Origin: a virus
Virus record (IMG/VR): IMGVR_UViG_3300025897_000022
Span: 1 to 46,713 of that record
DNA length: 46,713 bases
Reading direction: 5' to 3' (one strand)
Position numbers and translations under genes: made by a program. Below, piece after piece: positions 2,158-28,902 of the stretch. Position 1 is the stretch's first letter; each line of letters starts with the position of its first letter. The notes below the pieces were generated by a model that was given only the letters and a program-made list of their open reading frames with translations, was not told the origin of the DNA and did no database searches.

Positions 2158-4665
2158 ATGTCTATGGAAATATACAGTGACAGTTTGGCAAAATTGTTTG
2201 CCGCTGAGAATATTGGTGTAGAAATCAAGAAAACATCAACAGCATATTTTGATGTCAAGAATCGCAGAATGACATTTCCAACTTGGATTCTAGAACTGCC
2301 TGTTGCCTCCCGTGAACTCCTCATGTTGCATGAAGCATCACATGCTCTCCACACACCTGAATTTGGTACTCATGAAAAAGCCAAAGAATATGAGCAAGTT
2401 TTCAGAACTATTCTAAATGTTTTGGAAGACAAACGCATAGAAGATATGATGAAAGAAAAGTTTCCCGGTTCAAAAGCCACATTTATTCGTGGATTTTTTG
2501 AGCTTGTGAACAAGAACTTTTTTGGCATTCGTTTTCATGACAGTACAGAAGAACTTAGTTTAATTGATAGAATGAATCTACATTTTAAAGGTGATTATTA
2601 CTTTGAATGTGAATTCACAGAAGAGGAGCAATATTGGGTAGACCGCGCCGTACAAAATAAGACCTTTGAGGAAGTGTATCAAAATGCTCTAGAATTGTTT
2701 GAGTGGATTAAAAAAGAATACTCTAAAGAAGTGTTGGAAAACATCAAATTCAATTTGGATGATTTGCAATTTGGTGATAGTGATTATGATGATGTTTATG
2801 GCAATCCAATTCAAATGGATTTAGACAAAGTTAAAGAATCTATTGGTGAAGAAGCATTTGAAGAATTGATGAACGCAATTGAAGAGAATAGAAAAGAAGA
2901 TGCGGAAAATATTATCAATCAAAATCTAAAGGATGATAGACTAGATTTTGCTGAGAATAATTCTGCGAAAACAGATCAGAATTGGGAAAAGAACCAAGAA
3001 AATTTCATGAAGGATAGAGAGAATCAATACAATTCTTTCTCATACCGACATCCGCTAAATCTTAATATTCCAAGAAGAATCAATTGTGATGATTTTATTG
3101 TTAAAAATAGAGTTGTCACTGAAACATTAACAGAAAATTTTTCATATCTTTCCGATACAGAAAGAGAAAGTTTTCAAAACTTTATGAAAAAGCATAAAGA
3201 TTCTATGCGACAGATTCTCTCTCATATGGTTAGAGAATTTTATCGCAAAAAAGCTGCAGAAGATTATCGTAGAACGCAAGAATCTAAAACTGGTAATCTT
3301 GACTTGCACAAATTACCACATTACAAATATAATTCCGATTTGTTCCTAAACAAGTCTGTGATAAAAGATGAAAAAAATCATGGGTTTGTGTTGCTTCTAG
3401 ATTGGTCTGGCTCCATGAGTTCAATCATGACCAATGCAATTTTACAATTAATCAATAAAGTTACTTTCTGTAAAGCGATTGATGTTCCATTTGTAGCATA
3501 TGCATTTTCATCCGAAGCAGGAAAAAGCTATGATACTCCACAAGATATTGTGGTACATGCAACAGATGAAAATGATTTAAGAATCGGTTATACTTATAAA
3601 CTAATAGAGTTGTGTGATTCTACTAGAAAGAATTATGAAGAACAACTCCGAAATCTATATTATCTTGCATATTGCTTCATCAATAATAACATGATACCAG
3701 TTCATAGATATACATCAATGAAAAATTCTTGTGATGAATATCTACGCATACATGGTAATGAAAAAGTAGATTCATTTCCTCAACAAAATTGGAGAGTAAG
3801 ACAATTAGAACAATCTGTTGTTTTGAGTGATTTGTTTGAATTGGGTTCTACTCCACTGAACGATAGTTTAGTATTGATGAACCACGTATTACCCAAAACA
3901 CAACAACGTATGAATGTGGATATCATGAACTTCATTACCATTACAGATGGTGATAGTGATTTTATTCAATCCCCAGCAAAGGTTAGCGATTCAAAGACAT
4001 ACAAACAAAATTGTCATCCGAAGAAAAATTCCGAAACTTATACTGAGGACTCTATTGAAATTGATAAATTACATACAATTTTTGGAAGAAATGGTACAGC
4101 ATCTAATAGACGGGGTGATAACACAATTTTCTTACGTTCACTGTATTCAGATAAGATCTATGATTTAACAATGCCAGAAATGAAAGATGGTGGATATGGC
4201 CATTCAAAGAGCAGAGAACGTACACGTACATTTGCTAAAGTATTGAAACAAGAAACCGGTGCGAATGTTATTAGCATTGAGTTGCTACCTAATAACAACA
4301 ACTCTTTCAAAAAAACCATCATGTCAATGTATAACACTGATGATTTTGAAAAAATTGAAAAAATCTCCGCTGATTATCGCAAGAATGGTTTTGCAGTAAT
4401 TGAAAATGGCTATGACAAAATCTTTGCAGTGAACACAAATGTAATCTGTGAAGAATCATACAATCGTAATTACTATTACGATGTTTCTAATCTAGATGAA
4501 GAACGTGATTATTTTGATGATATCACTCAAACTAAGGATGGTAAATATACTACCAAACAATTGAAGAATGCACTTGTGAAAAATTCTTCTCAAAAAGCAA
4601 AACGGAAGTTCCTTGCTTCCAGAATTGTTGATATTATTTCCGATAAACAGAAAATTTCTGCTTGA
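2158..4665 (+). CDS. CobT-like VWA protein with HExxH motif
   Basis: 835 residues. I chose ATG 2158 because GGAG lies at 2147-2152; the in-frame TTG at 2146 overlaps that site. A zinc-protease-like HEASH is at about residues 58-62, followed near residues 87-96 by NVLEDKRIED, as in CobT-like proteins. An acidic linker follows. From about residue 405 comes a von Willebrand A domain with the MIDAS motif DWSGS (Asp415, Ser417, Ser419) and a later TDGD (Asp597). In cobaltochelatase the CobT VWA subunit works with the AAA+ subunit CobS, and the very next gene is CobS/MoxR-like, so the two probably form a chaperone-like complex. The substrate is unknown. Cobalamin synthesis is not implied by sequence alone. 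Confidence 0.8.
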   Translation: MSMEIYSDSLAKLFAAENIGVEIKKTSTAYFDVKNRRMTFPTWILELPVASRELLMLHEASHALHTPEFGTHEKAKEYEQVFRTILNVLEDKRIEDMMKEKFPGSKATFIRGFFELVNKNFFGIRFHDSTEELSLIDRMNLHFKGDYYFECEFTEEEQYWVDRAVQNKTFEEVYQNALELFEWIKKEYSKEVLENIKFNLDDLQFGDSDYDDVYGNPIQMDLDKVKESIGEEAFEELMNAIEENRKEDAENIINQNLKDDRLDFAENNSAKTDQNWEKNQENFMKDRENQYNSFSYRHPLNLNIPRRINCDDFIVKNRVVTETLTENFSYLSDTERESFQNFMKKHKDSMRQILSHMVREFYRKKAAEDYRRTQESKTGNLDLHKLPHYKYNSDLFLNKSVIKDEKNHGFVLLLDWSGSMSSIMTNAILQLINKVTFCKAIDVPFVAYAFSSEAGKSYDTPQDIVVHATDENDLRIGYTYKLIELCDSTRKNYEEQLRNLYYLAYCFINNNMIPVHRYTSMKNSCDEYLRIHGNEKVDSFPQQNWRVRQLEQSVVLSDLFELGSTPLNDSLVLMNHVLPKTQQRMNVDIMNFITITDGDSDFIQSPAKVSDSKTYKQNCHPKKNSETYTEDSIEIDKLHTIFGRNGTASNRRGDNTIFLRSLYSDKIYDLTMPEMKDGGYGHSKSRERTRTFAKVLKQETGANVISIELLPNNNNSFKKTIMSMYNTDDFEKIEKISADYRKNGFAVIENGYDKIFAVNTNVICEESYNRNYYYDVSNLDEERDYFDDITQTKDGKYTTKQLKNALVKNSSQKAKRKFLASRIVDIISDKQKISA

Positions 4666-4690
4666 CATTTCTCCACAACACTGATATACT
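4662..4690 (+). promoter_or_regulatory. Sigma70 extended -10 promoter
   Basis: TTGACA at 4662-4667, a 17-base spacer and TATACT at 4685-4690 with TG at 4682-4683. The upstream gene's stop codon lies inside the -35 box. The -10 sits in the loop of a perfect inverted repeat. It drives the AAA+ ATPase gene at 4733. Confidence 0.85.
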
Positions 4691-4705
4691 ATTTCAGTGT
4701 TGTGG
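4673..4705. repeat. 12-bp inverted repeat around a -10 box
   Basis: CCACAACACTGA at 4673-4684 is the exact reverse complement of TCAGTGTTGTGG at 4694-4705. The 9 bases between them hold the -10 box TATACT. It could be an operator, or a terminator hairpin for the upstream gene. No T-run follows, which favours a regulatory site. Confidence 0.75.
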
Positions 4706-4732
4706 ATTTCCCCTATAATCAAGGAGATTATT

Positions 4733-6061
4733 ATGAGCCGTGAGATTGAACTTGTACGTGAACACCTGAATAATGACGTTGCTACTCGCAAAGAGATTGT
4801 TGTTGCTGCTAAAGAACTTGGAATCAAACATGGTCCTGTGTTGCGAAAAGCAGAGAAAATTTCTCATGGTGTTTATAAATTGGAGACTGTATTGAAAAAG
4901 ACCCCACCTGTTAAAGAAAAAGTTGTAAATTTTCGGCCTAAACAAGAAGAGGTGAGTAAAGGTTATATACCTGAAAAAGACCCTTGCTTTGTTGCTTTTG
5001 GAGACTTCAGCGTAGTAGATGCCGTAATTGCATCCAAACGTTTCATGCCTGTCGTAATTACTGGCGATTCTGGTAATGGCAAGACTAAAATGGTAGAGCA
5101 AGCTTGTGCCAAAAACAAGCGTAATTTCTATCGTATGAATATTACTGTTGAAACAGATGAGATGGATATTCTTGGTCACTATAATTTGATCAATGGTGAA
5201 ACAGTATGGGAGGACTCCCCACTAGTGGAAGCCGCTAAAGTTGGTGGCATTGTATTACTAGATGAAATCTTTGCTGGCAATCCAGCACGGATGTTGGCAT
5301 TGCAAGGTATTCTAGAAGGCAAGCCATTTCTAATCAAGAAAACTGGTGAACGTGTTATTCCGGCAGAAGGATTCAATATTATTGCAACTGACAATACAAA
5401 GGGGAATGGTTCTGAATCTGGACGTTACATCGGAACTAACATTCAAAACACCGCATTTCTTGAGCGATTTGTAATGTGTATTGACCATGACTATCCACCA
5501 AAAGCTAAAGAAATCAAGATGTTGGATAAGTACATTGAAGTATACAATATCAATATTGATGATAAGGATTATACAAATAAACTTGCGCAATGGGCAGAAG
5601 TCACTCGCAAATCTTACAAAGATGGTGCAATTGATGAACTTGTAACAACACGGAGATTGTTTCATATTTTGGACATTTATTCCGTATTGAACGATAAAGA
5701 AAAAGCTATTCAATACGCAATCTCTAGATTTGATGAAGAAGTGCGAGATTCCTTCTTATCACTTTATAAAAAGATTGATGAAACTGTTGTTGACCCTAAT
5801 CATCAACCAATTGAAAAGGAAAACCTAGTAACATTAGACCAACTTATAGATGAAGTTTTTGATGAGAAAGAAAAACAACATTATTTATTAGATTCTGCTG
5901 ATTATGATGAAAGGCATAAGTTGTTCAAATTATATCTTGAAACTTTGGAAGAATATACAGAATTAGAGCAATCTTATGATAGAGTTTTGCAAGCCGATTT
6001 GATTTATCAACGAAAACTTTTAATTGAAAAATTGTGGAATATTTTTGATTCCGCTTCTTAA
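4733..6061 (+). CDS. cobS: CobS/MoxR-type AAA+ ATPase
   Basis: 442 residues from ATG 4733 behind AAGGAG. The in-frame ATG at 4697 is rejected because it lies within the promoter's expected start region. An N-terminal segment of about 50 residues looks like a small helical DNA- or protein-binding module. The AAA+ domain has Walker A GDSGNGKT (about 111-118) and Walker B VLLDE (Asp177-Glu178), followed by an IIATDN sensor-1 region and an ERF arginine region. This matches the cobS gene carried by marine T4-like phages. It most likely works on or with the VWA protein encoded just upstream. Whether it has any role in cobalamin is undecided. Confidence 0.8.
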   Translation: MSREIELVREHLNNDVATRKEIVVAAKELGIKHGPVLRKAEKISHGVYKLETVLKKTPPVKEKVVNFRPKQEEVSKGYIPEKDPCFVAFGDFSVVDAVIASKRFMPVVITGDSGNGKTKMVEQACAKNKRNFYRMNITVETDEMDILGHYNLINGETVWEDSPLVEAAKVGGIVLLDEIFAGNPARMLALQGILEGKPFLIKKTGERVIPAEGFNIIATDNTKGNGSESGRYIGTNIQNTAFLERFVMCIDHDYPPKAKEIKMLDKYIEVYNINIDDKDYTNKLAQWAEVTRKSYKDGAIDELVTTRRLFHILDIYSVLNDKEKAIQYAISRFDEEVRDSFLSLYKKIDETVVDPNHQPIEKENLVTLDQLIDEVFDEKEKQHYLLDSADYDERHKLFKLYLETLEEYTELEQSYDRVLQADLIYQRKLLIEKLWNIFDSAS

Positions 6062-6069
6062 AACATCCT

Positions 6070-6115
6070 AAATAGTAGAGAAACATTGGTAGTGTAAGTG
6101 TTCTCTACTATTTTA
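6070..6115 (+). terminator. Hairpin, probable terminator
   Basis: A 13-bp perfect stem (6070-6082 with 6101-6113) encloses an 18-base loop and ends in a short T-run. It lies between the cobS-like gene and the glycosyltransferase. The 5' arm overlaps a TAAATA core resembling the late promoter box, so it may instead lie at the 5' end of a late transcript. Confidence 0.6.
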
Positions 6116-6138
6116 TTAATTTATTTTGGAGTATATTA

Positions 6139-7038
6139 ATGGCTGAAGCAGAAAATACTGGTAATGTGTCCCCAGGTATGAAAACACAATTAGAACCTAA
6201 AGACTTTGAAGGTAAAAGTTTGATGGTTTGTATGCCTTGTTATGGTGGAATGATGGTAGCTGAAACAGCATCTCGCCTAATTGACCTCAACACTCTTTGT
6301 TCTTATTTCGGAATTAAACTTCAGTGTAAATTTATTATGAATGAAAGTTTGATTCAGAGAGCCAGAAACTATCTCACGCATTATTTTGAAATTTCCGATT
6401 TCACTCATATGATGTTTATTGATGCTGATATTGTTTTTGATCCAAGAGATGTATTACATTTATTACATCTTTCAGATGAAGACCATCAAGTCATTGGTGG
6501 ACTTTATCCTAAAAAACATATTCTTTGGCCGAGAGTAGATAAGGCAGCAAAGGTTCCCGGATTTTTAGATGATCCTAATAAATTATCAGAATTTGGTGGG
6601 GATTTCGTTTTTAATCCCGCACATAGAGGTGAAATTGAAATTTTTAAGCCTGTAGAAGTTTTAGAAATCGGAACTGGTTTTATGATGATTAGTAAAACTG
6701 CACTAGAAACATATCGTAATGCATATCCTAATTATGAATATAGACCAGACCATAATCATTCAAAAGATTTTAATGGTTCAAAAAATATTACTGCATATTT
6801 TCATGTAGACTTCGACAGACCAGATACAACTGGTGGTGAAACTAATCGTCTTCTTTCTGAAGATTATTTCTTTTGTCAAATGTCACGTAAAGCAGGAACT
6901 AAAATCTGGGCATGTCCTTGGATGCAATTGAGTCATGTAGGAACTTACGTATATCGTGGTTCTGTACAAGCACTTGCTGCAATGGAACAAGTGAGTACAA
7001 GACAACAAGAAATTCCTACAATTGATATTAAAGGTTAA
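6139..7038 (+). CDS. Glycosyltransferase-like protein, GT-A type
   Basis: 299 residues; GGAG precedes the ATG. A Rossmann-like N-terminal part starts at about residue 27 (SLMVCMPCYGG). A DxD motif (DAD at 95-97, preceded by MMFI) would bind the metal and nucleotide sugar. The C-terminal EDYFFC and HVGTYVYRG segments match phage GT2-like proteins. There is no signal peptide or membrane segment, so it acts in the cytoplasm. Possible substrates are modified DNA bases, virion proteins or host glycans, and the sequence does not decide. It stands alone between a hairpin at 6070 and the promoter at 7046. Confidence 0.7.
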   Translation: MAEAENTGNVSPGMKTQLEPKDFEGKSLMVCMPCYGGMMVAETASRLIDLNTLCSYFGIKLQCKFIMNESLIQRARNYLTHYFEISDFTHMMFIDADIVFDPRDVLHLLHLSDEDHQVIGGLYPKKHILWPRVDKAAKVPGFLDDPNKLSEFGGDFVFNPAHRGEIEIFKPVEVLEIGTGFMMISKTALETYRNAYPNYEYRPDHNHSKDFNGSKNITAYFHVDFDRPDTTGGETNRLLSEDYFFCQMSRKAGTKIWACPWMQLSHVGTYVYRGSVQALAAMEQVSTRQQEIPTIDIKG

Positions 7039-7045
7039 AAAAAAC

Positions 7046-7074
7046 TTTACTTTTTTAAAATTATATGGTATAAT
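7046..7074 (+). promoter_or_regulatory. Sigma70 extended -10 promoter
   Basis: TTTACT at 7046-7051, a 17-base spacer and a consensus TATAAT at 7069-7074 with TG at 7066-7067. It lies just upstream of the sliding clamp operon. The ATG at 7073 of the small gene overlaps the -10 box, so initiation would be downstream of that ATG. Confidence 0.75.
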
Positions 7075-7327
7075 GTTGATATATATTCAACCACATGAAT
7101 TATTAGGACGGTTTAAAAATAATCAAGAATTAATTGAAAGTATGTATAATCTTGGAATAGATTATGAGACAAACACATTAGATTGTGTATTTGAAGATGA
7201 GTGTGTTCCAGTTTTTAGTTTTAAGAAATATGGTTTTCTCCAAGATAATCGTTGGAGTACTTACGAAATTTCTAAAGGTTCGGCTGGTATTTTAATTGAA
7301 ATTGTGATCTCAAAAGAGGAGTATTAA
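7073..7327 (+). CDS. Hypothetical protein before the clamp gene
   Basis: The frame is open from 7022, but the first part overlaps the previous stop and the promoter. From ATG 7073 it gives 84 residues, which contain the segments PHELLGRFKNNQELIESMYN and SFKKYGFLQDNRW. The start is unresolved: ATG 7073 lies in the -10 box, so use of that promoter would require a later start (next Met at 7142). The stop is 2 bases before the clamp start. Function unknown. Confidence 0.5.
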   Translation: MLIYIQPHELLGRFKNNQELIESMYNLGIDYETNTLDCVFEDECVPVFSFKKYGFLQDNRWSTYEISKGSAGILIEIVISKEEY

Positions 7328-23193: not shown

Positions 23194-23934
23194 TCACCTA
23201 ATTTTTCTTGCTGATTTTAATTTTTTCTTTCCTTGGCAATGTGCACGTTGGCTAAACCCCTTGGGGTTATTACAGTCAATGGACTTTTTGTATTTCTTAG
23301 TCCATTTTTCAGCAATGTCATAAAATTGTTCTCTCAGAGCTTCAGATGCTTCGCCAGTAGGGTTTACATACCAACCATAAAACTTAGCATTAGGATAATC
23401 TTTTTTCAAAGAAACAAAAGAATTTAGATTTGCTTTTGAATCATCGTACATAATGACCTTATCGTAAGTATCCTTGTTCATCAGAGAAAGAATGATTTTT
23501 TTCTTGTTTTCCTCAATAGTTCCACCCTTCATGTTACCGGCACGGTATACATGAACTTTTTTCATATCAATTCCGTACTTACGAAAGGTATCTAAAAATA
23601 ATTCTTTATCATCAAAGTCCGCTCTGGCAGTAACCATTACAACTTTATTCCCACGATTGATATCTCTCTTCAATTGTTTCATCATAGGAATGATCGGTTT
23701 TGCATTATCAAAAAATTCTTTTGCATTGCGAAAGTTCTCAAAATCAAATTCTTCACCGTCCTTGAGTTTATAGTTGGTGAACTCATGACTGTTCAGTTCC
23801 CTTATTTTTTTCCCATCTTTCATTACTCTAACTTTTGTTGATGTGTGAACCAACGTATCGTCAATATCAAAGACAACTAAAATTTTAGTGAGTGCCTCTT
23901 GCAAATTTAAAAAGAATTGTTTAAAGTTTTTCAT
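23194..23934 (-). CDS. HAD-superfamily phosphatase with capsid-targeting-like N-terminus
   Basis: 246 residues. HAD motif I is DIDDT (Asp23, Asp25), motif II VMVTARAD, motif IV IMYDDSKAN. An adenylate-like or polynucleotide 3'-phosphatase-type function is possible, but the substrate is not defined. The N-terminus MKNFKQFFLNLQE resembles T4 internal-protein capsid-targeting sequences, with a possible gp21-type cleavage after Leu-Gln-Glu13. The C-terminus has a Cys-His-Cys segment (DCNNPKGFSQRAHCQGKKK) and a basic tail. It overlaps the end of the 630-aa gene by ATGA, so the two are coupled. Confidence 0.75.
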   Translation of the reverse strand: MKNFKQFFLNLQEALTKILVVFDIDDTLVHTSTKVRVMKDGKKIRELNSHEFTNYKLKDGEEFDFENFRNAKEFFDNAKPIIPMMKQLKRDINRGNKVVMVTARADFDDKELFLDTFRKYGIDMKKVHVYRAGNMKGGTIEENKKKIILSLMNKDTYDKVIMYDDSKANLNSFVSLKKDYPNAKFYGWYVNPTGEASEALREQFYDIAEKWTKKYKKSIDCNNPKGFSQRAHCQGKKKLKSARKIR

Positions 23935-25823
23935 GTAAAATTGTATACACGGTTATTTAAATGTATTGCACCTTTCGGTGTAAGTTTTCTTCTGAAAATA
24001 GTAAATGCTATGTAGTTTAATTGTTCATCTAGTTTATTCTTTCGTACTTCTTCTGTTTCTTTTTCCAAGTCTTTAAAGAATCCAGGACCTAAATCTTTGA
24101 AATAATCATTCACTATTATATCTATAACTTTTGTTTCAAATTTAGGTTCTTTACTAAAATCGGTTATTGATTTAGTAGAATTATGCATAAAGAATCCTTT
24201 GATTCCACTCGGCTCATCACTCTTCAATATCTTTTCAAATACTTCCAATTCTTTAGAATCTCCAAAATATTTTGCCATACCAGGCCAAATATCAACTGCA
24301 GCTAATTGTAGTTTCAATGGAACTTCTTTTTTAAGTTCATACCATCTATTTACCCATCTACCTAAGTCACGGACACTTGTATTCTTTTCTTTAGCTTCCT
24401 TTAATGCGAATATAAATGAATCAACATCTAGTTTAGAGTTTTCAAGTTCCATTAATACACGCACATGCATCGGCTCTTTTATGAATGCCCACTTATAAAA
24501 ATAGTTTAGAAATTTAGCATCATCAGTATAATGATGCATTCCAACGGCAGCATCTGGTTCCTTCTTGATTACTTCTTCTAGAACATCTTTGTCTAATTTA
24601 ACATTGTAATCCTTACATGCTTTATAGAAAGTAGTCATTCTTGTATGCATTGCTACATTTCCTTTTGCATACAAAGGCCTAGTTTCTTTCATTGGATCGT
24701 ATTTGTTCCTAATAATATCTTTTAAAATATAGTTAATCTTTTTTTCTTTAGAATCTAGTTTCTTATATTCAATTGCATGTGGTGTTTTATCCTCATATGT
24801 TTTATTATCAATGATATCCAATACTTTATAACCTGCTCTGGATAAAAATACTGCTTGTACAGGCTCTGCCTCATGAATAATTCCATAACCACTTCTATCA
24901 CTAATAGAATCATATCCAATATTAATCAACAAATTAGCCCATGCGTTAGCCGCTGGTTTTGCACCTTTCTTTTCATTTGGTGATGGGTCTTTCATTATTA
25001 CCAAATCAAATTTAAAATCTCTAGATTCTTTTTTAATAAATTTATACGGGTCAGTTTTCATTTCTGCTGGAACTGATTCAACTTTATCTGGTAAAAAATC
25101 TTTTATTTTATCTTTTTCTGTTAAGTCTACTTCTGCATTAAAGCTAGTTGGACCTTCAGCATCCTTTAAAGTATAAACCATATTGTATGTGTTATCCTTG
25201 TCATATTCTTTTGAAGTTGCTGTAAGTTGTTTTACTTTCCTTGCTTGTGCAATTAATCCAGAAACTGTTCTAGTTATGTTCCAAAATTCAGCACCACGAT
25301 TTTCAGCCTTTGCACCTTTCATTGAATGCTCAATAACAGACAACATCATATAATACATTAGCTTTTCATTTTTAATATTCAATACATCCATCAATTTTTT
25401 AGAGGCATACTCAATTATTTTTCTCACATCCTTTTCTAGCATAGCTTGCTTATAATCTCTACCAACATCATTAATATTTTTATTACCCTTTCTTTTAAGA
25501 ATAGCTATTTTAGGTTTTTCTTTTACAAAAGGAACATTAAATCTTTTATATTCTTTACCACCACTATACATTAAATAAACTTCTTCTAGAGGATATGTGT
25601 ATACACCATTCGGAGTGTTGAATTTTGATTTGGTGTTCAATCCTACTTGTGCTGATAGTTCACCGCTTTTACCTGTTTCTGTAAATTCTTTTGCATTAGA
25701 TATGAATGAAATAAAAATATCTGGGTCCTTCTCATATTTTAACAATGCCTCAACAGGAAATTGTTTTACATTCAATTCTGGATTTCTTCTAGCTTCTGTT
25801 AAAATAGTTGTAAATGATTTCAT
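23931..25823 (-). CDS. 630-aa protein with capsid-targeting-like N-terminus
   Basis: The protein begins MKSFTTILTEA, resembling T4 internal proteins (MKTYQEFIAEA type), with Leu-Thr-Glu10 as a possible prohead protease site. GVYTYPL (about 69) and a segment GYDSISDRSGYGIIHEAEPV followed by QAVFLS (about 303-330) resemble parts of phage proteins related to polyvalent ART-type modules, but I am not sure. The C-terminal half looks helical and repeat-like. Highly charged throughout. No Shine-Dalgarno site is visible before the ATG. A TATAAATA late box lies about 46 bases upstream on this strand. Candidate injected protein. Confidence 0.65.
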   Translation of the reverse strand: MKSFTTILTEARRNPELNVKQFPVEALLKYEKDPDIFISFISNAKEFTETGKSGELSAQVGLNTKSKFNTPNGVYTYPLEEVYLMYSGGKEYKRFNVPFVKEKPKIAILKRKGNKNINDVGRDYKQAMLEKDVRKIIEYASKKLMDVLNIKNEKLMYYMMLSVIEHSMKGAKAENRGAEFWNITRTVSGLIAQARKVKQLTATSKEYDKDNTYNMVYTLKDAEGPTSFNAEVDLTEKDKIKDFLPDKVESVPAEMKTDPYKFIKKESRDFKFDLVIMKDPSPNEKKGAKPAANAWANLLINIGYDSISDRSGYGIIHEAEPVQAVFLSRAGYKVLDIIDNKTYEDKTPHAIEYKKLDSKEKKINYILKDIIRNKYDPMKETRPLYAKGNVAMHTRMTTFYKACKDYNVKLDKDVLEEVIKKEPDAAVGMHHYTDDAKFLNYFYKWAFIKEPMHVRVLMELENSKLDVDSFIFALKEAKEKNTSVRDLGRWVNRWYELKKEVPLKLQLAAVDIWPGMAKYFGDSKELEVFEKILKSDEPSGIKGFFMHNSTKSITDFSKEPKFETKVIDIIVNDYFKDLGPGFFKDLEKETEEVRKNKLDEQLNYIAFTIFRRKLTPKGAIHLNNRVYNFT

Positions 25824-25842
25824 AATACTAAAAAGATTTTTT

Positions 25843-25850
25843 GATAAATA
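25843..25850 (+). promoter_or_regulatory. Late-type box GATAAATA
   Basis: It lies 48 bases before the FmdB-like start and is arranged divergently with the minus-strand box at 25869. Confidence 0.5.
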
Positions 25851-25868
25851 AATGTATTGGTTATGTTA

Positions 25869-25876
25869 TATTTATA
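25869..25876 (-). promoter_or_regulatory. Late-type box TATAAATA, minus strand
   Basis: The exact box read on the minus strand, 46 bases upstream of the 630-aa gene. The two divergent units overlap: each promoter lies in the leader of the other. Confidence 0.55.
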
Positions 25877-25897
25877 AAATTTAAAATGGAGTATCTT

Positions 25898-26149
25898 ATG
25901 CCAAGCTATGATTATCACTGTGATACCTGCGAAAATGATTTTGAAATTTTTATGTCAATTTCAAAAAGACATGAACCTATTAATGAAGAATGTTCAAAAA
26001 ATAACTGTTCTCTTAAATTAAAAGTTTCATCACCAACTATCGGTTACGATAATTTTTCTTTAACTGGTAAAAAACCAGATGAAGGCTTTCGGGATAAGTT
26101 AAGAGAAATGAAAAGAAACATTCCTGGAAATACAATTAATGTGGATTAA
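25898..26149 (+). CDS. FmdB-like zinc ribbon protein
   Basis: 83 residues from ATG 25898 behind GGAG; an earlier in-frame ATG at 25841 overlaps the promoters. MPSYDYHCDTCENDFEIF is the FmdB-type start, with CDTC as first Cys pair and CSKNNC as second (spacing 4 rather than the common 2). Small zinc ribbons of this type are annotated as regulators, without clear function. It stands alone between the divergent promoters and PhoH. Confidence 0.75.
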   Translation: MPSYDYHCDTCENDFEIFMSISKRHEPINEECSKNNCSLKLKVSSPTIGYDNFSLTGKKPDEGFRDKLREMKRNIPGNTINVD

Positions 26150-26151
26150 TT

Positions 26152-26159
26152 AAAGGAGG
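26152..26159 (+). other. Perfect Shine-Dalgarno without a start codon
   Basis: AAAGGAGG followed by T is complementary to the 16S 3' end, yet no ATG, GTG or TTG lies at usable distance and the next codons include stops. It follows the FmdB-like stop directly. It may be a relic of a lost gene or a ribosome standby site. Confidence 0.5.
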
Positions 26160-26184
26160 TTTCTAATAGAGAGATATTAAATAG

Positions 26185-26212
26185 CTCACTCGGGTTTTAT
26201 ATTCTGAGTGAG
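26185..26212 (+). terminator. Hairpin before phoH
   Basis: CTCACTC (26185-26191) pairs with GAGTGAG (26206-26212), extended inward by three pairs including two G-T. No T-run follows. An ATTAAATA box at 26176-26183 lies directly before it. It could be an upstream terminator or the 5' end of the phoH mRNA. Confidence 0.5.
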
Positions 26213-26259
26213 TGATAGCAAACCTGAGTAATTCTTGTTAAAACAATACGGAGTTACTT

Positions 26260-27054
26260 ATGTCAAGAAAAAAGACACAAACTTCTAACCAAAACCGCGG
26301 ATTGCAATTAAGAGAAATTGAGCCGATGACTAATGCTCAAAATTTATTATTCAATTCTTTTTATGATGGTCATCATGTAATTTCAATGGGAACGGCGGGT
26401 ACAGGTAAATCTTTTTTATCTATTTTTCTTGGGTTAGAAGCAGTGTTTGACCCACATTCTCCATACAAAAAAGTTCTCATATGTAGGTCTTGTGTGCCTT
26501 CTAGAGACATTGGTTTTTTACCAGGAACTGAAGAAGAAAAAATTTCTGTTTATAAAAGACCATATCAATCTATTGTGCAAGAACTTTTTAAAAGAGATGA
26601 CGCTTGGGAAATTCTTGAAAAGAAGGGAGTAGTGGAGTTCTGTTCTACTTCTTTTTTAAGAGGAACAACTATAGATAATACAATTATCTTTGTTGATGAA
26701 ATTCAAAATTTAGCTTATAACGAAATTCATAACGTAGTCACTCGCATAGGAAAGGATTCGGCTTTAATTTTGGCAGGAGATTTTGGACAAATGGATTTAG
26801 ATATGGAAGAAAGTGGGATTAAAGATTTTTTTGAAATAGCTAAAAAAACAAAAGGTTTTAAAATCGTGGTGTTTCAAGAAAAAGATATTGTCCGAAATGA
26901 TTTTATTAGAGATTATATTATAGCTAAAAATCAATATGATAAAGAGAAAAAAGAAAGGATATTATACAATGGTCACAAAGTACAAAGAGAACCTTTTAAT
27001 AATATTGTAGTTGCTGGTCAGCGATATTCTATAGAAGCAACCCCCGTAAATTAA
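26260..27054 (+). CDS. phoH: PhoH-like ATPase
   Basis: 264 residues. Walker A GTAGTGKS (Lys50), the PhoH hallmarks RSCVPSRDIGFLPGT (76-90) and FLRGTTIDN, and Walker B FVDEIQN (Asp146-Glu147). PhoH proteins are RNA- or nucleotide-linked ATPases common in marine phages; the link with phosphate starvation is not certain. GGAG precedes the ATG. It lies between two hairpin-bearing intergenic regions, so it probably forms its own unit. Confidence 0.92.
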   Translation: MSRKKTQTSNQNRGLQLREIEPMTNAQNLLFNSFYDGHHVISMGTAGTGKSFLSIFLGLEAVFDPHSPYKKVLICRSCVPSRDIGFLPGTEEEKISVYKRPYQSIVQELFKRDDAWEILEKKGVVEFCSTSFLRGTTIDNTIIFVDEIQNLAYNEIHNVVTRIGKDSALILAGDFGQMDLDMEESGIKDFFEIAKKTKGFKIVVFQEKDIVRNDFIRDYIIAKNQYDKEKKERILYNGHKVQREPFNNIVVAGQRYSIEATPVN

Positions 27055-27071
27055 TCTAAATACACAAGGTA

Positions 27072-27091
27072 GGGGAATTTTAATATTCCCC
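27072..27091 (+). terminator. Hairpin after phoH
   Basis: A 7-bp stem GGGGAAT (27072-27078) with ATTCCCC (27085-27091) and a 6-base loop, without a T-run. A TCTAAATA box at 27055-27062 precedes it, as at other hairpin sites. Confidence 0.5.
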
Positions 27092-27107
27092 CAAAACGAG
27101 AAAGTAA

Positions 27108-27512
27108 ATGCAAGAATATGAAGACATAGTAAATGATGTTTTAGATTTTTGCAAATCTAGAAAGTATACAGTAGCAGGCATAGACAAATTATTTGAACAT
27201 GAAGATTTTAATATACATAATGATGAAGTTATAGCAAGAATAATGCTTTATAACCATGCTCCATTAATGCTTGAAGTTTATAATACAAATACATTAGGAT
27301 TGTTTTTTAATCTTTTTGAATGTGATCCATTTTCAGCAAGTTTATTTACTAAAGAATTTTTAGAAAAAAAAGTAGATATAATTTCTGCATTTGTTGAAAT
27401 GAAAAATTCAGAAGGAAAAATAACTAAATTACTTTTTGGTGAAAAAGCAGTAGAACAATATGCAAAAGAACGTAAAACTAAATCAGAAACACCATTATTA
27501 TTTTTAAATTAA
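27108..27512 (+). CDS. Hypothetical protein, 134 aa
   Basis: 134 residues, mostly helical and acidic in its first half, with a Phe-rich middle (LGLFFNLFECDPFSASLFTK). No membrane span of full length and no recognised motif. A weak GAGAAAG precedes the ATG. It lies 1 base before the amidoligase, so the two are probably co-expressed; it might be a partner, which is inference from position only. Confidence 0.6.
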   Translation: MQEYEDIVNDVLDFCKSRKYTVAGIDKLFEHEDFNIHNDEVIARIMLYNHAPLMLEVYNTNTLGLFFNLFECDPFSASLFTKEFLEKKVDIISAFVEMKNSEGKITKLLFGEKAVEQYAKERKTKSETPLLFLN

Positions 27513-27513
27513 A

Positions 27514-28902
27514 ATGCTACCATTTAAAAGTTTTTTAACTGAAGGTATTAAAAAAAATCAAATAGATCAAGTCTTCAGCAACAATGATTTCAAAGTTGGT
27601 CTTGAATTTGAATTTTACAATGAAAGATTCTTAGAAGATAGCAATCGTCCGAGCGCAGAAGAAACATTACTACTTGGTACACTTTCTGATTTACTCACTG
27701 GTGCAAAGAAAAAAAATAGAAACATATTGAATAATAATCGTAATGTTGAAAAGAACAAAAGAAATAAAATCATAACAGATGATGATATTTTAAATGATTT
27801 TCAGACAAGAGAACGTAAGATATTATTAGGATATTTCAAAAGACAAGGATTAAATGAGAAAACTGTTGCGGACTACATCTACTACATTGTAGCTCAAGCA
27901 GGCTCTAGATTTAAAGAGTTGTATTATCCTCAAAATTATAAACAAGATGTATTTGACAGAGTGAAAAGACAACTAAGAAAGTTGGAAAAATTTATGGATT
28001 TGCTGAACGCACAAACAGATGAGAATGTTCCATTTGCAGACGTAAGAAAATTCTATAAGCAAGAAAGAAATTTACCACCATTCATCAAGAATCCATTGAT
28101 ATCTAGTAAGCATGGTGCTACTGCAAAAGCAAATAGATGGGCAATTGTAATTGACCAATCAATTTCACCAGCACTCGGTGGTATAGAGATGGTAAGTCCT
28201 GTGATGAGACCGCAAGAGGCATTAGAAGTAACTGATAAAATGTTCAACTACATTAGAAATGTTGGTAATACAAAATCAATGGCATCTGCAGATGAATTTG
28301 AAGAATCAGACCCAGATTACAATGTAAGGGATGTGCAATGTGGATTACACATCAACATATCATTTACACCAGAAAGAATGAAAAAGTTTGATGCATTAAA
28401 ATTTTTACTCTTCTCTCATGAATCTCAAGTGAATAATAAAAAATTATTTGGAGATAGAAAAGATGCTGAATTTATAGATGGTACTTTAAAAGAAATAAAA
28501 GATAATTATTTTCGTACTGCAAAAACAGTAAATTTGTCACCAGAATCTTTAGGAAAATGGTTAGATGAAAAAGTAAAAAAGAACAATATGAAAACAGGTA
28601 TAGCAGTATTAGTAAGCACATTACAGCTTTTTGATAAGTATACCAATATCAATTACTCTCACTACAAATTCAGTAATAGAACTATTCGCAGAGCAGGTTC
28701 AGAACGTATTGAAATTCGTTACTTTGGTGGTGAAGGATATGAGGATAAAATTATGACTTTCAGAAGAGTTCTTGGTGAGTTGTTATATGCTCTGGATGTA
28801 GCTACAGATCCTGAAAAAGAAAAAGATAGATACTATAAGAAAGTTTATAAAATTTTAAATAGTATAAAAGAGTTTGATAAAGAAAAATCAAAGCGAAAGT
28901 GA
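27514..28902 (+). CDS. Amidoligase with capsid-targeting-like N-terminus
   Basis: 462 residues. After an N-terminal MLPFKSFLTEG (possible gp21-type cut after Leu-Thr-Glu10) comes the amidoligase pattern: GLEFEF (29-34), GGIEMVSP (about 222-229), CGLHIN (276-281) and IEIRYFGGEG (about 399-408). These match the glutamine-synthetase-fold amidoligases, which join a carboxylate to an amine using ATP. An inserted Lys- and Arg-rich region (about 65-190) is not part of the core. No Shine-Dalgarno site is visible. Substrate unknown: peptide, cell wall or host protein. Context with two other tagged proteins suggests delivery into the host with the DNA. Confidence 0.75.
   Translation: MLPFKSFLTEGIKKNQIDQVFSNNDFKVGLEFEFYNERFLEDSNRPSAEETLLLGTLSDLLTGAKKKNRNILNNNRNVEKNKRNKIITDDDILNDFQTRERKILLGYFKRQGLNEKTVADYIYYIVAQAGSRFKELYYPQNYKQDVFDRVKRQLRKLEKFMDLLNAQTDENVPFADVRKFYKQERNLPPFIKNPLISSKHGATAKANRWAIVIDQSISPALGGIEMVSPVMRPQEALEVTDKMFNYIRNVGNTKSMASADEFEESDPDYNVRDVQCGLHINISFTPERMKKFDALKFLLFSHESQVNNKKLFGDRKDAEFIDGTLKEIKDNYFRTAKTVNLSPESLGKWLDEKVKKNNMKTGIAVLVSTLQLFDKYTNINYSHYKFSNRTIRRAGSERIEIRYFGGEGYEDKIMTFRRVLGELLYALDVATDPEKEKDRYYKKVYKILNSIKEFDKEKSKRK

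Follow-up and report, generated by a model that had tools for sequence, protein, structure and literature searches.

Why should three proteins of one phage begin alike when the rest of them is unrelated? The question is raised by a 46,713-nucleotide stretch of viral DNA (positions 1 to 46,713 of IMG/VR record IMGVR_UViG_3300025897_000022; hereafter the window), in which the genes for a HAD-fold protein, a 630-residue protein and an amidoligase-like protein open with a leader of 10 to 13 residues that resembles the capsid-targeting leader of phage T4. The source is an uncultured T4-like virus of bacteria, and the 46.7-kb window is a fragment of its genome; baseplate wedge subunits (one a match to T4 Gp8), a sliding clamp, a clamp loader, CobS and PhoH families are recognizable. 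With fair confidence, we read the three genes as encoding T4-like internal head proteins, targeted by their leader, cut, kept with the DNA and entering the host with it. The genes and their leaders are listed below, a slash marking the predicted cut.

23194-23934, minus strand: gene of the HAD protein, 246 residues; start MKNFKQFFLNLQE/A
23896..23934, minus strand: leader of the HAD protein, residues 1-13, MKNFKQFFLNLQE; predicted cut after Glu13
23931-25823, minus strand: gene of the 630-residue protein; start MKSFTTILTE/A
25794..25823, minus strand: leader of the 630-residue protein, residues 1-10, MKSFTTILTE; kept in the family
27514-28902, plus strand: gene of the amidoligase-like protein, 462 residues; start MLPFKSFLTE/G
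27514..27543, plus strand: leader of the amidoligase-like protein, residues 1-10, MLPFKSFLTE

Results

A shared leader on three genes of the window

A preliminary description of the window had placed three open reading frames (ORFs) with these N-termini at these positions, and our ORF check bears it out. The (L/I)xE site that it claimed for the end of each leader is present as LQE, LTE and LTE, and the likeness that it saw to the T4 capsid-targeting leader is real: each start carries an aromatic residue at position 4 (F4), a hydrophobic one at position 7 (I7 or F7) and a terminal [L/I]xE. L8 and E10 are exact in two of the leaders, while in the HAD protein the site lies three residues later, with the cut after residue 13. 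As far as our tests go, nothing relates the payloads behind these starts: different families are matched by the HAD and amidoligase-like proteins, and none by the 630-residue protein.

The loose motif composed in the same description, scanned unchanged, matches 3 of the 50 genes in the window against 0.047 expected. Chance was estimated by shuffling residues 2-31, and none of 300 shuffles reached three matches (Poisson P 1.7e-5). A stricter 10-residue form of the leader matches two of the 50 genes, those of the 630-residue and amidoligase-like proteins, against 0.12 expected. Because the loose motif was composed after these genes had been seen, tests in other phages outweigh the P value from the window.

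Four records, 46.7 to 85.8 kb long and all fragments, represent the phage, and the window is contained in one of them (G001, 85.8 kb). On the longer records the loose motif matches 5 of 87 genes (G001) and 5 of 91 (G003). Two matches are additional to those of the window: MKRYSEFWEVILE/K, the start of a 70-residue basic protein, and MIIYVDIDGTICEE, which we regard as matching by chance at the first strand of a HAD-like protein. The four leader proteins of G001 are all basic, the isoelectric points (pI) of their precursors ranking 2, 7, 11 and 15 of 87. The 70-residue protein (G001 6958-7170, leader MKRYSEFWEVILE/K), which we take to be DUF3008-like, is a fourth candidate cargo of the phage.

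Conservation of the leader in the family of the 630-residue protein

The 630-residue protein has no match at E <= 0.01 among 50,697 phage records; a distant family member (L270) retrieves two huge-phage records, and family searches in viral contigs gave 77 loci in the last scan. With three loci of the window's own species dropped and one phage record (L374) added, 75 loci provided 64 distinct starts, 50 of which were aligned with the window in 51 rows. The loci had been retrieved by core patterns, the leader playing no part.

Identity to the first row is 23-44% and only seven columns are invariant, and the Glu of the cut site is among 15 nearly invariant ones, being kept in 49 of 51 rows. The P3 residue is L in 22 rows, I in 16, V in 5, F in 4, M in 2 and another residue in 2, so that L or I accounts for 38; Ala follows the cut (P1') in 24. 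Seven rows (L329, L311, L319, L336, L338, L356 and L363) do not start from the first start codon but from a later Met or the search match, so their leader lengths are our choice, and that of L336 is too short. Fourteen loci were left out of the alignment, and eleven of them have, by eye, a leader-like start, in some cases from a later Met. Judged from the alignment, the leader persists while the payload diverges, which supports capsid targeting.

The leader on unlinked payloads

A degenerate DNA pattern for M-K-x-F-x-x-F-[LF]-x-E-A, scanned over viral contigs, matches at least 120 places. Among the 120 matches listed, 110 open an ORF of at least 60 residues, 8 run off a contig end and 2 are short. 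A permuted control pattern of the same make-up gave 25 matches in all, 9 of them with ORFs of at least 60 residues, and one of these control matches (L248) is, by eye, a leader protein in its own right, of the cytidylyltransferase type. Once stripped of the leader, the 110 proteins among the matches listed fall into 27 clusters without a BLASTP link at E <= 1e-3: a cytidylyltransferase-like family holds 77 proteins, and 22 clusters are single proteins, among them a HAD protein like that of the window (L201). In these comparisons the leader moves between payloads, and its presence on unlinked proteins supports capsid targeting.

Cyanophage S-SM2 provides a further combination. Its gp108 consists of the leader followed by a near copy of the segment after the predicted cut in gp23, the major capsid protein (MKTLKQFLKE/TPTNSVGNGGYTSAGG in gp108, GGMIAE/QPTNAVGNGGYTSSGG in gp23), and its C-terminal end is the basic module described below. 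Segments like the N-terminus of the mature major capsid protein are also seen by eye in L145, L213 and L383 28342-29235 (S-CREM2 ORF160), in two of the three directly behind a leader.

The strict form of the leader occurs 2 and 4 times in S-SM1 and S-SM2, against 0.32 and 0.35 expected; one match in each (annotated gp5 hub/lysozyme and UvsX) is probably due to chance. A jumbo-phage record in which gp21 is present (G018) has no excess of leaders, with 0 loose matches in 423 genes against 0.23 expected and 1 strict match against 0.60. Another repeated start, MS[SN]ILKG[LI]... (for example MSSILKGLNE), occurs in L046, L054 and L067, the last of which lies in G018, and is echoed C-terminally as NE/SAI[LM]KGL behind the basic module; it is perhaps a second class of capsid-targeting leader.

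Leader proteins in virions of relatives

Virion mass spectrometry has been published for several relatives and is used here from the available parts of those reports. For S-CREM2, Table 3 of the report gives 52 virion proteins (PMC10665884). Strict and loose patterns were both fixed before this phage was considered and were left unchanged; the background of 166 undetected genes comes from our own ORF calls (at least 40 residues, ATG starts, 217 in all). Among the detected proteins, the strict leader is carried by 5 of the 28 that are non-structural or hypothetical and by 0 of the 24 structural ones, and among the undetected by 1 of 166 (detected versus not, Fisher P 0.003), so that five of the six strict-leader genes of S-CREM2 are represented in its virions: an S-adenosylmethionine (SAM) hydrolase, an APH/ChoK-like kinase, a cytidylyltransferase, ORF13 and ORF136. 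The loose motif gives 3 of 28, 0 of 24 and 0 of 166. A virion-detected nuclease annotated as Cas9 (L381 7704-10313) has PLRFASFMAE/AAV after a 16-residue extension; this stretch was left out of the counts, and the phage may package Cas9 by the same signal.

The cytidylyltransferase recurs in other virions. In S-SM1, T4-GC190 cytidylyltransferase was detected in purified virions (PMC3037559), and its gene starts MKKFSAFLNE/A. S-SZBM1 has 30 detected virion proteins, the cytidylyltransferase being the sole one called an enzyme (PMC9146016); its start, MRFRQFIIE/A, is one residue short of the strict pattern. The idea of shared capsid targeting put forward in the preliminary description therefore draws support from three sides: leader conservation in the family of the 630-residue protein, unlinked payloads, and virion mass spectrometry of relatives.

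The HAD protein and its basic C-terminal module

23308..23895, minus strand: HAD-fold phosphatase core, residues 14-209; DIDDT at 23-27
23194..23307, minus strand: C-terminal basic module, DIAE/KWTKKYKKSIDCNNPKGFSQRAHC..., residues 210-246 plus stop; pI 10.7

The HAD assignment follows from matches to PHROG 415 (E 1.6e-11) and DUF2608 (28 bits, over the cut-off of 22.6); the score for Acid_phosphat_B, 22.4, lies under its cut-off of 27. The nucleophile motif DxDx[T/V] is present as DIDDT. Near the C-terminus stands a second [L/I]xE site, DIAE/KWTKKYKKSIDCNNPKGFSQRAHCQGKKK..., followed by a basic module of 37 residues that is also found in cyanophages and other viral contigs. The module follows [LI]xE directly in 23 of 29 distinct contexts and [LIVF]xE in 26 of 29, the exceptions being L135, L050 and L030, and the sequence ahead of its [LI]xE site mostly differs among contexts. 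These include near relatives (several end ILLTE) and so do not amount to 29 independent events. In some contigs (for example L032 and L051) the whole protein is little other than leader plus basic module. Four loci (L032, L058, L065 and L071) have a separate module about 8-9 kb from the HAD match, too far to make a case for functional linkage.

Two long proteins, L097 42801-44927 (S-SM2 gp109) and L046 4666-8781, carry several basic Cys modules between (L/I/F)xE sites and resemble polyproteins cut in the head. One module type of these proteins recurs in the virion-detected S-SZBM1_139.

The fold of the 630-residue protein

24789..25730, minus strand: core domain, about residues 32-345, possibly ADP-ribosyltransferase-like; conserved TPxGxY and IHxxEPxQ
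23931..24788, minus strand: C-terminal helical part in the structure model, residues 346-630 plus stop; unassigned

Neither Pfam nor PHROG scans of the 630-residue protein gave a family match, ADP-ribosyltransferase families included, and on other family members they gave no consistent family. The full model has no match among solved structures at E <= 0.001 and three in BFVD at that threshold, all unnamed. A core model, built on L329 and 51 sequences, is confident for the greater part of residues 20-230 and has no match at E <= 0.001 among PDB structures. Its best solved-structure match is 9k3a_B (Foldseek E 1.4e-3), the sole entry in the list with probability 1.00. The core aligns with it over 162 residues (Z 7.9, 4.8 Å) and the window protein's own model over 168 (residues 1419-1609 of 9k3a_B; Z 6.7, 5.1 Å, rank 16), Z scores at a level that the tool calls common. 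For the latter model, 9k3a_B is the only row among 50 that covers the N-terminal domain. Matches to solved structures at residues 234-338 of the core model, the top-ranking one (Z 8.2) among them, lie in a low-confidence part and were set aside, as was the single match of the family profile to PDB sequences (E 0.71), which is not credible.

The matched chain is a pre-ejectosome protein of cyanophage A4, and its sequence is that of A-4L ORF27. We take the matched stretch 1419-1609, YHGT...GSGTYFS, to be ADP-ribosyltransferase-like, a reading confirmed by no library: neither Pfam nor PHROG assigns such a family in this region. The family profile finds no sequence match in A-4L ORF27, and the link is accordingly one of fold. 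On this modelled likeness, a role like that of T4 Alt is our best guess for the 630-residue protein, about evenly balanced between right and wrong, and the conserved H and E-P-x-Q are candidate catalytic residues only. A-4L ORF27 itself (L379 20116-25269), annotated as a tail protein, seemingly holds an ADP-ribosyltransferase-like domain that Pfam leaves unassigned.

The amidoligase-like protein

27544..28902, plus strand: mature amidoligase-like protein, 452 residues

The score for Amidoligase_2 (PF12224), 20.2 bits, falls just under the curated cut-off of 22. Relatives are L008, at 57%, and two paralogues in Salicola phage SCTP-2. The cut site is kept in four proteins of the family despite varying leader length, as LTE/GI, LLE/GI, INE/GV and IQE/GV.

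Gene layout

25869..25876, minus strand: late-promoter-like TATAAATA, 45 bp before the start codon of the 630-residue protein; tentative

On the minus strand, the start codon of the HAD gene and the stop of the 630-residue gene overlap by four bases; on the plus strand, PhoH and one small gene precede the amidoligase-like gene. The motif TATAAATA, presumably T4 late-promoter-like, occurs 6 times in the window against 11.1 expected by chance; being rarer than chance, its copy upstream of the 630-residue gene is at most suggestive. Elsewhere in the phage, G001 2624-6823 is a run of genes that, by eye and from their N-termini, resemble purine biosynthesis enzymes.

Discussion

A proposed route from prohead to host

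The three proteins are probably packed in the head and delivered with the viral DNA. In the mechanism that we propose, the N-terminal leader of 10-13 residues would bring the precursors into the prohead core, a prohead protease of the gp21 type would cleave after (L/I)xE, and the basic mature proteins would stay beside the DNA inside the head and pass into the host along with it. A second cut in the HAD protein would release, in addition, a strongly basic C-terminal peptide of 37 residues. The cargo would then act upon its host as infection begins: the 630-residue protein would most likely be an ADP-ribosyltransferase-like counterpart of T4 Alt, the HAD protein would be a phosphatase and the third protein an ATP-dependent amidoligase. 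We infer the packaging, cutting and injection of these three proteins, as well as their activities; delivery at infection is extrapolated from T4, and the three are candidate effectors.

Several observations weigh against this proposal. HAD relatives give a mixed picture: the domain is preceded by a leader or a cut site in L201 and L014, a leader-like start minus the cut Glu is seen in L012 and L013, and L032, L065, L071 and the partial L023 have none of these. The nearest amidoligase relative has lost most of its leader (MKVLLE/G). Two aligned rows of the 630-residue family (L326 and L330) are without the Glu, and in three of the left-out loci (L320, L349 and L374) the domain is, by eye, preceded by no leader. 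S-SM1 and S-SM2 have few leaders, the loose motif occurring a single time in each (0.15 and 0.14 expected). The mass-spectrometry data come from other phages and, in the published parts used here, report presence rather than cut or injection, and an earlier S-PM2 virion study, as cited in the available text of PMC3037559, did not detect the cytidylyltransferase.

Finally, the four records of the window's phage contain no match to PF03420, the gp21 family. Nor do the three longer records, or the related record G004, match a T4-type portal or major capsid protein, and the S-CREM2 control was positive for both; the head genes are probably not covered by these records, and the absence of PF03420 therefore says little and is not decisive. 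PF03420 scores over its cut-off in 8 of 26 related records drawn from those behind L001-L087, and in 11 of 44 in a second set (43 of the 77 loci of the 630-residue family plus L374). Four members of that family in which the cut Glu is lost (L326, L327, L328 and L330) come from records in which no gp21-type match exceeds the cut-off; these records, which may be incomplete, also gave no T4-type portal, so the coincidence yields no conclusion.

Alternative explanations

The alternative that survives best, which we consider unlikely, accepts leader targeting and cutting and has the proteins work in the prohead, in scaffolding, DNA condensation or head maturation, rather than as effectors directed at the host. 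It fits the basic character of the mature proteins and the short, strongly basic C-terminal module, found also in long proteins with other basic Cys modules, and an assembly phenotype of T4 IPIII is noted in the available text of a T4 review (PMC9026906). The domains themselves point elsewhere: the HAD and amidoligase-like ones resemble enzyme families, the core of the 630-residue protein resembles a domain of a pre-ejectosome protein, and the wide variety of payloads suits host-directed cargo better than assembly parts.

We give far less credence to the shared start as a signal unconnected with the capsid, such as one for translation, degradation or membrane contact. A helix is predicted over residues 4-13 in both structure models (with low confidence in the first), as for many N-terminal signals, but no part of the start is as constant as the [L/I]xE junction, the same site pattern turns up within proteins ahead of the basic module, and leader proteins are enriched in the S-CREM2 virion list. 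Coincidence, with hydrophobic starts arising by chance in an AT-rich genome, is scarcely credible and was already disfavoured: the motif is short and found after the fact, and S-SM1 and S-SM2 carry the loose motif only once each, as given above, but no shuffle reached three matches and the leader is conserved in distant homologues.

A possible modular delivery code

Internal head proteins remain our preferred account of the three genes, and a broader proposal follows the same lines: leader and internal copies of the cut site may constitute a general modular code for protein delivery in T4-like phages of water. This we hold tentatively, placing it slightly short of an even call. If it is true, any protein or polyprotein carrying the code would be packaged, cleaved in the prohead and delivered along with the DNA, and one short motif would predict the injected proteome. 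The set predicted here would consist of an ADP-ribosyltransferase-like enzyme, an amidoligase, a phosphatase that can release a basic peptide, and a small basic protein; elsewhere it would include a SAM hydrolase, a kinase and even Cas9. To our knowledge, many genes of aquatic T4-like phages are without known function, and few measurements show which of their products accompany the DNA into the host. Should the leader be as good a guide to packaging as it is in S-CREM2, injected proteins would be readable from sequence, and existing virion mass-spectrometry data could be searched again at once for cut N-termini.

Comparison with known systems

The closest model is T4, as described in the available text of the review (PMC9026906). 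Packaging needs no more of IPIII than its first ten residues; leader residues 4 and 7 serve targeting, and 8 and 10 processing; gp21 cuts after L/I-x-E, with propeptides of mature virion proteins ranging from 7 (Alt) to 65 residues (gp23); and the leader mechanism is proposed as a general way of loading cargo. Like T4 IPI-IPIII, the proteins of the window have an N-terminal leader of about ten residues with the same residue roles and an L/I-x-E site. Unlike them, their payloads are larger and of enzyme-like families, and no gp21 is seen in the fragments. T4 Alt, an injected ADP-ribosyltransferase with an N-terminal propeptide of 7 residues, is cut by gp21 at both ends (PMC9026906), a precedent for two-site processing of the HAD protein, which has a site near each end. 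The 630-residue protein possibly belongs to the same enzyme class as Alt, an assignment resting on a moderate fold match.

Phage P1 DarA is packaged in the head, ejected with the DNA and cut by the prohead protease; its propeptide, about 9 kDa in the available text (PMC12810830), is longer than the window leaders, and it is likened here by description. Among the matches listed in searches for capsid targeting, the literature concerns T4, T4-based vectors, P1 or SPN3US, and capsid targeting together with cyanophages retrieved only the T4 review, which is no proof of absence from print. The text of PMC10665884 that was available does not mention capsid targeting, leader, N-terminal, internal protein or injected, and that of PMC3037559 mentions neither internal protein nor protease.

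The cyanophage virion enzymes (T4-GC190 cytidylyltransferase, and the SAM hydrolase and kinase of S-CREM2) share the type of leader with the proteins of the window and differ in payload. The leader mechanism itself is that of T4. New, as far as our searches go, are the payloads, the spread over 27 clusters among the matches listed, the second site with its basic module, and the agreement of the leader with virion lists.

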